From Minisyncoccota bacterium (GTDB lineage Bacteria; Patescibacteriota; Minisyncoccia; UBA6257), in NCBI GenBank assembly GCA_028711005.1, contig JAQTTC010000004.1, forward strand, positions 1 through 34,292: a DNA stretch of 34,292 nucleotides, in the 5' to 3' direction. The notes under the pieces were generated by a model. It made no database searches and was not told the DNA's origin. It saw only the letters and a list, made by a program, of their open reading frames with translations. Made by a program: the position numbers and the translations under genes. Shown here one piece after another: positions 10,099 through 34,292 of this stretch; position 1 is the first letter of the stretch; every line of letters starts with the position of its first letter.

Positions 10099-11907
10099 AT
10101 GAATAAATTAGCTAAATCTTTTTTAGTTGTTTTGATTATTTTTTTAAGCCTTTCTCTAGTTTTTTCTGCACTAGACAATTCTTTGATTGATAAAAAAGAA
10201 GTAAGTCTATCAGAAGCATTACAGGTTTTAAAAGAACAAGACTTTCAAAAAATTGTTCTTCATCCTAATAGTTTTGAAATTTTCCTTTCTGAGGAAAGCA
10301 TTTTAGTAGCAGAAAGAGAGCCGAATGTTTCTTTTTCAGAAACTCTTTATAACTTTAATTTTTCTCCTGAAGAAATATCCGCTCTTAATATAGAAGTAAA
10401 AGGAGAGAGTGGAACAACAATTTTTCTTTCTGTAATTTTGCCAATTTTGCTTCCCGTTTTATTAATAGGTTTTATTTTGCTTTATTCTTTTCGTCGGGCA
10501 AATCAAGGTGCAATGCAAATATTCTCTTTTTCTCGCTCTAATATTAAATTATTCTCACCAACAAAAGATAGAATTACTTTTAAAAATGTCGCAGGGTTAA
10601 AAGAAGCAAAAGAAGAATTAAAAGAAATTGTAGAATTTTTAAAAACCCCTAAAAAGTTCCATGATTTAGGAGCAAAAATTCCAAGAGGAGTCTTGTTAAT
10701 GGGTCCTCCAGGTTCAGGTAAAACTTTATTAGCAAGAGCCGTGGCTGGAGAGGCTAAAGTACCTTTTTTCCATATCTCTGGGTCAGAGTTTGTAGAGATG
10801 TTTGTTGGTGTAGGGGCAAGTAGAGTAAGAGACACTTTTGCTACAGCTAAAAAATCAGCTCCTTCTATCTTGTTTATAGATGAAATTGATGCAATTGGTA
10901 GAGTTAGGGGTGCAGGAGTAGGAGGTGGTCATGATGAAAGAGAGCAAACTCTAAATCAGATTTTAGTAGAAATGGATGGATTTGATAGAGACACAAAAAC
11001 TATTGTGGTTGCAGCAACAAATAGACCTGATGTTTTAGATCCAGCGTTATTACGCCCAGGTCGTTTTGATAGACGAGTAGTTTTAGATCTTCCTAATATT
11101 GATGAAAGAGAGGCTATATTAAGAATTCATATACAAGACAAAACTTTAGCTCCTCTAACTAATTTAAGAGAAATAGCAGAAAGAACTCCAGGCTTTTCTG
11201 GTGCTGATTTAGCTAATTTAATTAATGAATCTGCTATTTTAGCGGCACGAAGAGATAAAAAAACTATTAGTCAGCAAGAATTGATAGATTCTATAGAAAA
11301 GGTTATTCTAGGACCAGAGAGAAAAAGTAGGATCTTGACTAAAGCAGAGAAAGAGATTACTGCTTATCATGAGGCTGGGCATGCTTTAATAACTGCCTTG
11401 CTTCCAGGGACTGCCTTAGTTAGAAAAATTTCCATTATTACACGTGGAAGAGCGGCTGGTTATACGATGAGAATGCCTGTTGAGGAAAAATATATGAAAA
11501 CACATTCAGAGTTTTTGGATGATTTATGTGCTATTTTAGGAGGATATGTAGCAGAGGAAATTAAGTTTAAAGATATTTCTACAGGTGCGGCTAATGATTT
11601 AAAAGAAGCAACTAATATAGCTAGAGGATTGGTAACTAAATATGGAATGAGTAAAAAAATTGGACCAATTTCTTTTGGTAAGTCAGAAGAGATGATTTTC
11701 TTAGGTCGCGAAATTTCTACAGAGAGAGATTATTCTGAAGAAACAGCAGCAAAAATAGACAATGAAGTAGCTAGTATTATTAGAAAATGTTACAATCGAA
11801 CAAAGAAATTATTACAGAAAAATAAAAACAAGTTAGAAAAAATTACACAGGAATTGATTAAAAAAGAAACTTTAGAAAAAGACGAATTTGAAAAACTTAT
11901 AAAATAG
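10099..11907 (+). CDS. ftsH: ATP-dependent zinc metalloprotease FtsH
   Basis: Walker A GPPGSGKT, Walker [35 protein letters not shown], zinc site AYHEAGHAL. Confidence 0.98.
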
Positions 11908-11992: not shown

Positions 11993-12667
11993 ATGGCACG
12001 TTTTAGAGATCGTCAAAAAGCGATAATTTTGAGAAAACGAGGGATGAGCTATAGCCAAATCAAAAAAGTTTTAAAAGTAGAAAAAAGTACTTTGAGCACT
12101 TGGCTTAAAGATTACCCTCTTTCAGAGACTAGGATAAGGCAATTAAGGGATTGGAGCGAGCAAAGAATCGAAAAATGTCGTGAAACAAAAAGAAAAAAGA
12201 AGGAAAAAAGATTAGAGGATTTTTATCAAGAACAAAAGAGAATTATTACTCCCTTAAATAAACGTGAATTATATCTTGCGGGTTTATTTCTTTATTGGGG
12301 AGAAGGAGCAAAGAGCAGGATGGTAGAATTATCTATTTCCAATACAGATCCCTCGATCATCCAATTTTTTCTTTTTTGGCTTACGAAATCTTTATTAGTT
12401 CCAAGACGGAAAATTAAAGTTGCACTGCATTTATATAAAGATATGGATGTTGATGAAGAGATACATTTTTGGTCAAACATTTTAAAAATTTCTCCAAAAC
12501 AATTTTATAAACCCTATATAAAAGAAAGTACATTGAAATCTGTAAATCATAAAGGAGGATTTGGTCATGGTACTTGCAATATAAGGGTTTCAGGGGCAAG
12601 GCTTACAGAAAAGATATTAATGTCTTTAAAGGTAATTAGTGATACATTTAATAGAACGCGCACGTAG
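11993..12667 (+). CDS. HTH plus LAGLIDADG-like (homing-endonuclease-type) protein
   Basis: N-terminal HTH (RQKAIILRKRGMSYSQIKKVLKVEKSTLSTWLK); YLAGLFLYWGEGAK resembles LAGLIDADG, followed by ELSISNTDPSIIQFFLFWL. Confidence 0.65.
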   Translation: MARFRDRQKAIILRKRGMSYSQIKKVLKVEKSTLSTWLKDYPLSETRIRQLRDWSEQRIEKCRETKRKKKEKRLEDFYQEQKRIITPLNKRELYLAGLFLYWGEGAKSRMVELSISNTDPSIIQFFLFWLTKSLLVPRRKIKVALHLYKDMDVDEEIHFWSNILKISPKQFYKPYIKESTLKSVNHKGGFGHGTCNIRVSGARLTEKILMSLKVISDTFNRTRT

Positions 12668-12730
12668 CTCAGTGGTAGAGCAGGGTCCTTATAAGGCCAA
12701 GGTTCGCAGGTTCAATCCCTGCCGTGCGCA
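12658..12730 (+). tRNA. tRNA-Ile(TAT)
   Basis: Acceptor GCGCACG/CGTGCGC, D-arm GCTC-AGTGGTA-GAGC, loop CTTATAA (stem GGGTC/GGCCA with a 27-43 mismatch), T-arm GCAGG-TTCAATC-CCTGC. Confidence 0.9.
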
Positions 12731-12735
12731 CTATC

Positions 12736-12809
12736 GGGCACTTTATATAGTAATTGGTATCTTACTTTGGTATAGTTAAAGATTGTAAGCTCAAGTTTTA
12801 TAGTGCCAC
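12736..12809 (+). other. tRNA-like element (degenerate or noncanonical tRNA)
   Basis: GGCACT (12737-12742) pairs AGTGCC (12802-12807). Anticodon-arm-like CTTTG-GTATAGT-TAAAG. T-arm-like GTAAG-CTCAAGT-TTTAT directly abuts the acceptor 3' strand. D-arm weak. 3' flank A-CTA like neighbouring tRNAs. Confidence 0.55.
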
Positions 12810-12812
12810 TAA

Positions 12813-12886
12813 GGGCGGTTAGCTCAGTTGGTTAGAGCGCGTACTTGACGTGTATGAGGTCAGGGGTTCGAGTCCTCTACCGCCCA
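12813..12886 (+). tRNA. tRNA-Val(GAC)
   Basis: Acceptor GGGCGGT/ACCGCCC, anticodon arm CGTAC-TTGACGT-GTATG, T-arm AGGGG-TTCGAGT-CCTCT. Confidence 0.94.
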
Positions 12887-12958
12887 CCTTAGTTGATTTT
12901 TATAAAATGATTTATACTGCTATACTTAATACAAATTTAAGGAAGTTTTTATTTTACA

Positions 12959-13918
12959 ATGGAAAATATTCATGTTGAGCAAGTTTTTAAGCCTTTACGT
13001 CTAGATAAATATTTGAGTAGAAAGATTAAAGATATTTCTCGAGAAAAAATTAATTTTTTAATAAAAGAAGGAAAGGTAAAGATTAAAGGTAAACAAAAAT
13101 TAAAACCAAGCATTTTATTAAAAGGAGGTGAAGAAATTAGTTTAGATATTTCTGGCTTAAAAGAAAATGAAGATTCATTTATTTTAGAGCCTCAATCAAT
13201 TTTTCCTGAGCCAGAAATTTTATATGAAGATAAAAATTTTATAGTCCTTGATAAACCATCGGGAATAATTGTTCATCCATCCTTAACTAATTTTAAAAAC
13301 CCTTCAATTATTAGTTGGCTTATTGGAAAATATCCTTTTCTTTCTCAAGTAGGCGAGGATAAATTACGCCCAGGAATAGTTCATCGCCTGGATAAAGATA
13401 CATCAGGAGTGTTAATTGTGGCTAAGAATAATTTTTCATTTAATTATTTTAAAAATCTTTTTAAAACAAGAAAAATTAAGAAGAAATATATTGCCTTAGT
13501 AAAAGGTGAGTTAAAAAATGAAAAAGGAGAAATAAATTTACCTTTAGCACGTTCTAAAAAATCACCAACTAAAAGAAAAGTAGTTACAAGTCGTTTTCAA
13601 CTAGATAAAGCAAAAACCGCTATAACAAAATATAGTGTGATCAAAAGGTATAAAAGCTTTACTCTTTTAGAGGTTTTTCTTGAGACTGGGCGTACTCATC
13701 AAATTAGGGTTCATTTAGCAAGTATTGGTTTTCCTGTGGCAGGTGATAAAATCTATGGGAAATCTAGAAAAAAAGAATATTTAAGCTTGTCTCGTCAGTT
13801 TCTTCATGCCCAAGAAATATCTTTTATCTCTCCAGCCGGAAAATTTCTTGAAATAAAATCTTCTTTACCTCAAGAACTTGTAAAAGTTTTGAGAAATTTA
13901 ACCCCTCAAATTAATTAA
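12959..13918 (+). CDS. RluA-family pseudouridine synthase with S4 domain
   Basis: S4-like N-terminus; GIVHRLDKDTSGVLIVAKN catalytic motif; GRTHQIRVHLASIGFPVAGDKIYG. Confidence 0.95.
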   Translation: MENIHVEQVFKPLRLDKYLSRKIKDISREKINFLIKEGKVKIKGKQKLKPSILLKGGEEISLDISGLKENEDSFILEPQSIFPEPEILYEDKNFIVLDKPSGIIVHPSLTNFKNPSIISWLIGKYPFLSQVGEDKLRPGIVHRLDKDTSGVLIVAKNNFSFNYFKNLFKTRKIKKKYIALVKGELKNEKGEINLPLARSKKSPTKRKVVTSRFQLDKAKTAITKYSVIKRYKSFTLLEVFLETGRTHQIRVHLASIGFPVAGDKIYGKSRKKEYLSLSRQFLHAQEISFISPAGKFLEIKSSLPQELVKVLRNLTPQIN

Positions 13919-33946: not shown

Positions 33947-33973
33947 AATAATTTAATAATTCTTTTATTTTTG

Positions 33974-34292
33974 TGCCGAGGCGGTGAATCGAACACCGGA
34001 CGCTTTGCTCTTCCATAATAATTCTAAATTACTTTAGAGGTTGGACTATATCATCACCCTAATTAAAAGGGGCTGGGCGCTTCGAAGTAAAAATTTATTT
34101 ACCCCTACTCTTATAAAAGATAGTCTCTACACCTTCCTGCTTAATTTTTATGAAAATAATTTTTAGCAGGCTTGGCTCGGAATTGCCCAATTTTATATTT
34201 GGGTTTCTCCGATTTTACCCAGTTTGCAATTCACATTACTATGAATTGGCCCAAAGATTTAGGCAAACGCTCTACCACTGAGCTACCTCGGC
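33974..34292 (-). tRNA. tRNA-Phe(GAA) interrupted by a group I intron; exons 34261-34292 and 33974-34013
   Basis: Acceptor GCCGAGG/CCTCGGC, D-arm GCTC-AGTGGTA-GAGC, spliced anticodon arm TTTGC-CTGAAGA-GCAAA, T-arm CGGTG-TTCGATT-CACCG. 3' flank A-CAA. Confidence 0.9.
34014..34260 (-). other. Group I self-splicing intron, ORF-less, about 247 nt, IC3-like
   Basis: P1 exon GCCT pairs IGS GGGC with U-G at the splice site. P2 CAATTCA/TGAATTG. Core motifs GGGCAATTCCGAGCCAAGCC, GGAAGGTGTAGAGACTATC, GATGATATAGTCC; P7 GACTA/TAGTC. P10 IGS TCTT with exon AAGA. Terminal G at 34014. Confidence 0.93.

Follow-up and report, generated by a model that had tools for sequence, protein, structure and literature searches.

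The element at positions 12736–12809 of the window, by which we mean the whole analysed stretch of 34,292 nucleotides from a Minisyncoccota bacterium, is best read as a decayed tRNA-Ile. Most likely it is a former tRNA-Ile(UAU) that would have become redundant after a homing cassette, consisting of an ORF and its own tRNA-Ile(UAU), was inserted upstream; we give this reading a probability of roughly two in three. The upstream ORF and its tRNA-Ile(UAU), which an earlier note on this DNA did not link to the element, are the likely cause of the decay. The remnant by itself is ordinary, and it is the cassette family, rather than the remnant, that deserves attention. The features of the locus are as follows.

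10099–11907, + strand: ftsH (AAA+ and M41 peptidase; Pfam), upstream flank; same flank in G002–G004, G006 and L032
11911–12735, + strand: insert relative to congeners (leader, ORF and tRNA-Ile), approximate, from comparison with L002, L003 and L147
11918–11946, + strand: probable ORF promoter TTGTTC-17-TATAAT, read from the sequence and similar in the closest homologues; not listed by a consensus promoter scan
11993–12667, + strand: ORF of 224 aa with an N-terminal HTH (HTH_23-like) and a LAGLIDADG-like domain; absent from G001–G003
12658–12731, + strand: complete tRNA-Ile(UAU), the putative replacement tRNA of the cassette, with acceptor GCGCACG (ARAGORN; Rfam, 64 bits)
12736–12809, + strand: the element, a degenerate full-length tRNA of tRNA-Ile type in the slot of the resident tRNA-Ile(UAU) (covariance model, synteny, best matches to Ile tRNAs)
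12813–12888, + strand: intact tRNA-Val(GAC), downstream flank (ARAGORN; 97–98% identical to congeners)
12959–13918, + strand: RluD-like pseudouridine synthase, downstream flank (Pfam; syntenic in G002 and G003)

Detection and structure of the element

The earlier note had described a tRNA-like cloverleaf here, and a covariance model built from 40 Patescibacteria tRNAs (with row L088 included without its 5′ part) confirms it from end to end. The element scores 18.5 bits at full length (model positions 1–72), with an E value of 8e-5 in 1061 nt and 0.0021 in 27 kb; its intact tRNA neighbours score 76.5 and 63.5 bits on the same model. When aligned with the Ile tRNAs of the genus by a transition-tolerant method, the element beats 500 of 500 dinucleotide shuffles. 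The covariance match, taken with this alignment, therefore establishes the element as tRNA-derived, beyond chance. Only the lineage-specific model detects it. The general tools that had been suggested as checks make no call: ARAGORN does not report 12736–12809, and the Rfam tRNA model (RF00005) does not match it at the gathering score, nor at E ≤ 10 on 261 nt. The minimum free energy is unremarkable (z = −0.9, with 39 of 200 shuffles equally stable). Two further Rfam matches were rejected as chance or tRNA mimicry, one to Plastid-ycf2 that is the antisense of tRNA-Ile and one to YrlA at E = 0.9.

All of the sequence features claimed for the element are present, with the stems where they had been described. 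These include the terminal stem formed by GGCACT (12737–12742) and AGTGCC (12802–12807) and the T-arm GTAAG-CTCAAGT-TTTAT (12785–12801). The hairpin CTTTG-GTATAGT-TAAAG is likewise there, but the covariance model favours a different register for the anticodon arm, with the stem UUACU / AG-u-UAA, a bulged U, the loop UUGGUAU and the nominal anticodon GGU. Because this register differs from that of the hairpin with loop GTATAGT, the anticodon AUA proposed earlier is insecure, and neither AUA nor GGU is trustworthy.

Synteny, ancestry and probable decay of the element

In all three congeners (G001–G003), ftsH is followed by tRNA-Ile(UAU), 0–4 nt and tRNA-Val(GAC) with no ORF, and these loci are thus empty sites; the RluD gene then follows in G002 and G003, where the contig extends. 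The window differs by about 825 bp of extra sequence after ftsH, made up of a leader, the ORF and a tRNA-Ile(UAU) whose sequence is of a different type, 92% identical to the only tRNA-Ile(UAU) in the sister genus G004. The TAG stop codon of the ORF is T8-A9-G10 of this tRNA. The ORF is patchy in the genus, being present in the window genome (G000) and absent from the three congeners, and the same insertion context is seen at Ile-UAU in many families. The comparison of relatives that the earlier note had suggested therefore yields an intact tRNA-Ile(UAU) in the slot that the element occupies in the window, an orthology that rests on position.

The best matches of the element are Ile tRNAs, with z = 6.7 for Ile-GAU and a mean z of 4.1 for Ile-UAU vs 3.1 for other tRNAs (P = 0.002). 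As the element sits in the tRNA-Ile slot of the congeners and matches Ile tRNAs best, the simplest account is that it is a former tRNA-Ile(UAU). In alignment comparisons, sequence alone does not separate Ile(UAU) from Ile(GAU) as the ancestor, and the top single match is the genome's own tRNA-Ile(GAU) (42 matches, 20 transitions and 10 transversions). That the nearest tRNA by sequence is Ile(GAU) counts against the cassette account and in favour of a decayed within-cluster duplicate, for example of tRNA-Ile(GAU), that arose independently of the ORF insertion. We consider such a duplicate unlikely, because the element fills the tRNA-Ile(UAU) slot of the congeners, the tRNA-Ile(UAU) now in the window is of another lineage's type, and remnants beside cassettes recur at other loci, as described below.

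Three possibilities had been offered earlier for the element, of which a decaying tRNA is supported by the syntenic intact tRNA-Ile(UAU), by sequence loss and by redundancy. At near-universal positions T54 has become C and C61 has become T, with T55, C56, A58 and G53 kept; one C is missing from the 3′ strand of the acceptor stem, one base is bulged in the anticodon stem, and the GC content is 0.32 vs 0.5–0.6 in the compared Ile tRNAs. Significant full-length tRNA homology with lesions, together with an intact tRNA at the same site in relatives, is what marks a tRNA pseudogene, and a score below the Rfam and ARAGORN thresholds with T54 and C61 changed is not what a functional tRNA shows. The window genome (454 kb, 98.6% complete, 40 detected tRNAs) has intact tRNAs for every codon that the element might read, namely, Ile UAU, Ile GAU, Tyr GUA and Thr GGU, and the element is therefore not needed. 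Its full-length homologue was sought in 245 genomes of the order, which yielded only pieces of at most 30 bases.

The pairing of the element is the one observation that sits uneasily with simple decay. Of the 21 model pairs, 20 are standard and up to 21 are attainable, and in simulations of neutral decay from Ile tRNAs equal pairing was reached in 0–2% of cases, so more pairing survives than neutral decay would be expected to leave. Realignment was permitted to a limited extent in the simulation, and its stems were the reason the element was picked out; we therefore read the pairing as hinting at slow or late decay and not as functional proof. The same figure, along with the position of the element within a tRNA cluster, is what would speak for a tRNA-derived RNA under structural selection, whether an AU-rich tRNA or a non-decoding RNA from the cluster. 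We judge this quite improbable given the loss of T54, C61 and the acceptor C, the bulged anticodon stem, a folding energy no better than that of shuffles, the lack of a full-length homologue in the order and the tRNAs that the genome already has. The other two possibilities offered earlier, a mitochondria-like minimal tRNA and a tRNA-derived RNA with a non-decoding role, are each unneeded and, apart from the better-kept pairing, have no positive evidence.

The ORF family, its tRNA partners and remnants at sister loci

Homologues of the ORF are found in 111 of 245 genomes of the order and, at a stricter cut-off, in 105 of 384 genomes across the phylum. We examined 100 of them for pairing, gap and phylogeny. 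In 88, a same-strand tRNA lies directly 3′ of the ORF at a gap of −35 to +63 nt, and in 39 the stop codon falls inside the tRNA. Four more precede a tRNA split by a group I intron (L084, L107, L112 and L126, with tRNAs Phe or Asn as read from the exons) and two run off the contig. The remaining six make up two clades beside tRNA-Val(UAC) or tRNA-Glu(UUC) in which the tRNA is on the opposite side (L070, with the ORF at 585–1220, L109 and L130; L082, L083 and L131), a reversal that counts against the cassette account; in L109 a 3′ tRNA fragment immediately follows the ORF stop. Among 40 regions fetched later, 38 of which had not been used before, a tRNA follows at once in 35 and an intron-split tRNA in three, so that 38 of 40 agree; in the other two, a tRNA-Ile lies on the opposite strand in one and nothing is near in the other. 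With about 40 tRNAs per genome and several hundred genes, as estimated from genome size, fewer than one gene in 10 would be so placed by chance. An intron-split tRNA also occurs in the window itself, at 33973–34292 on the − strand, where a tRNA-Phe(GAA) with a group I intron (Rfam RF00028, 94 bits; exons read) was missed by ARAGORN.

The pairing is specific. On the protein tree, 11 changes account for 11 tRNA labels, and when the unlabelled rows are treated as a twelfth group there are 14 changes vs a shuffled mean of 67. There is one clade per isoacceptor, for example, Lys CUU, Trp CCA and Gln UUG, with the window ORF in the Ile UAU clade, and the ORF–tRNA pairing is seen beside more than 10 kinds of tRNA across Patescibacteria. 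The ORF is under purifying selection, with dN/dS of 0.06–0.22 where unsaturated. Inverted repeats flank the ORF promoters in, for example, L054 (2400–2500), L088, L108 and L118, either as GAACC...GGTTC or, in the Gln clade, as long arms on both sides of TATAAT, and are possibly an operator for the N-terminal HTH.

The ORF protein consists of this N-terminal HTH followed by a domain with the motif LAGLFLYWGEGAK, which includes Glu104; the LAGLIDADG-type motif reads LAGLFLYWGEG, and E104 and D119 are at least 90% conserved. When the family profile was compared with PDB sequences it matched the homing endonuclease I-DmoI at E = 4e-4, with GLFLYWGEGAK on the second LAGLIDADG motif, GLYVAEGDK. The AF2 model of the protein has a pLDDT of 93, and a Foldseek search of this model against the PDB returned no match at E < 1e-3 and none to LAGLIDADG or any other nuclease. 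In a viral library, named LAGLIDADG proteins were listed only at E > 0.1, the hhalign comparison of the family with LAGLIDADG_3 was not significant, and a Pfam search of the ORF gave no LAGLIDADG match. As the I-DmoI match is weak and neither Foldseek nor hhalign supports it, which is a further point against the cassette account, "LAGLIDADG-like" is a lead, and membership is putative. Separately, G000 holds a second, different endonuclease–tRNA pairing in L149 (contig 34, 7538–7878, − strand), where a LAGLIDADG_3 protein (254-aa frame) lies directly 3′ of tRNA-Leu(CAA); L142 is similar, beside a CAU-anticodon tRNA.

These properties could also be those of a conserved gene linked to its tRNA, for example one for a regulator or a maturation factor of the tRNA with which it is cotranscribed, and not of a mobile nuclease. 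The tight spacing, same-strand order, single isoacceptor per subfamily and purifying selection would suit such a gene, as would the failure of Foldseek to find a nuclease in the PDB. We nevertheless regard it as improbable, because the ORF is patchy within genus and family, broken resident tRNAs lie alongside, the motif aligns with the second LAGLIDADG motif of I-DmoI and the family spans many isoacceptors.

At several sister loci, parts of the old tRNA can still be seen beside the cassette. In L076 and L086 (Lys), the 5′ half of a tRNA lies upstream of the ORF and ends near position 30–32, and in L042 (Arg), a 3′ half starting from about position 36 lies just after the cassette's own tRNA-Arg. 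In G010, which belongs to the window's family and has the Ile–Val pair but lacks the ORF, the 3′ half of tRNA-Ile(UAU), starting at the anticodon, is repeated almost exactly after the complete tRNA. The clear breakpoints of tRNA halves are all in the anticodon arm. Pairwise alignment and reading by eye further suggest a 3′ tRNA fragment in L028 (Ile) and an apparent pseudo-tRNA without an anticodon arm in L032 (Ile), which lies at this same ftsH locus but belongs to another family. The majority of modules (about 90 of 100) have no recognizable tRNA remnant, and this too weighs against the cassette account. When the sequence upstream of the Lys modules was compared with 5′ halves of tRNA-Lys, only L076 and L086 were clear, L094 and L117 were suggestive, and the clade means were not raised. 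Tentative tRNA-like matches upstream of L095 and L120 were rejected as remnants, being intron-split tRNAs. In L006 (G006, of the same family), positions 1576–1763 on the − strand hold a 5′ piece of tRNA-Val, an insert of about 150 nt and a full tRNA-Val, between tRNA-Ile(UAU) and tRNA-Val(GAC).

Tyrosine-integrase islands target tRNA genes and leave a working tRNA, restoring the tRNA end by crossover at att sites. The cassettes share with them the tRNA target and a host that keeps a working tRNA, and repeated tRNA 3′ ends, such as those in L095 (2215–2360), where 19 nt of the tRNA-Trp 3′ end recur without mismatch about 128 nt downstream, would fit an integrase-type element that restores tRNA genes on insertion. 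Such an element is very unlikely here: the ORF has no integrase domain, complete cassettes hold no recombinase gene, the cassette carries a complete tRNA and not a 3′ end, and the clear breakpoints are in the anticodon arm.

The cassette account and its meaning

From these sequence comparisons, we infer that the ORF family comprises free-standing LAGLIDADG-like homing cassettes, with each subfamily tied to one isoacceptor. In a genome without the cassette, the encoded protein would cleave the gene of the cognate tRNA at the anticodon loop, and repair would then copy the ORF and its complete tRNA into the cut site. Because the cassette brings a complete replacement tRNA, loss of the target would be survivable. 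Clean conversion would leave the ORF and tRNA without a scar, as in L058 and L060, where the cassette is scarless and tRNA-Val(GAC) lies within 4 nt. Imprecise events may leave tRNA halves or, as in the window, a displaced and useless tRNA. The window remnant is full length and unsplit at the anticodon, which counts against the cassette account; if it was indeed the target of the cassette, it would be a displaced or damaged copy and not a clean insertion scar.

Parts of this picture are already known, namely, free-standing endonucleases that adjoin tRNA genes in phages, and LAGLIDADG enzymes in rRNA introns as well as tRNA introns in this phylum. The nuclease family of phage T4 SegB is GIY-YIG. 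SegB and its relatives are described as homing endonucleases that stand free within tRNA clusters (Brok-Volchanskaya 2008, cited in PMC13096335), the neighbouring tRNA region being spread by coconversion and homologues often lying near tRNAs in phages (PMC13096335). The likeness lies in a free-standing endonuclease gene next to tRNA genes, the nuclease role of the cassettes being putative; SegB differs in being a phage protein of another nuclease family, whereas the cassettes are cellular. The literature covered does not report for SegB isoacceptor-specific subfamilies, a fixed ORF–tRNA unit or leftover half-tRNAs.

LAGLIDADG homing endonucleases occur in rRNA introns of CPR bacteria, as PMC11809585 relates (citing Tsurumaki 2024). 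The ORFs resemble I-DmoI-type enzymes in the aligned motif, and such enzymes are common in the same phylum; these sit in introns or inteins, whereas the ORFs stand free of either, begin with an HTH, are paired with a tRNA and match the fold weakly. In CPR bacteria, group I introns interrupt tRNA genes at the anticodon loop (PMC8172020), the same kind of site at which the cassettes would act, and the four modules noted above precede tRNAs split in this way. The cassette differs in that it has no intron or ribozyme and its tRNA is supplied whole. Our search of the open-access literature found no account of isoacceptor-specific ORF-plus-tRNA cassettes, although novelty is not thereby proven.

We put at about even the chance that self-compensating tRNA-homing cassettes form a large family in Patescibacteria, one that drives the turnover of essential tRNA genes phylum-wide and could act as an addiction element. 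The putative addiction would arise because the cell's sole copy of that tRNA would disappear together with the cassette. If this account is true, a selfish element aims directly at essential tRNA genes and carries the remedy with it, and the window remnant is one likely scar of the cassette family. It would help to explain the turnover of tRNA sequences and the split and decayed tRNAs of these small genomes, and it would provide many candidate nucleases with specificity for sites in tRNA anticodon loops, as well as a testable case of a selfish gene that holds an essential gene hostage.
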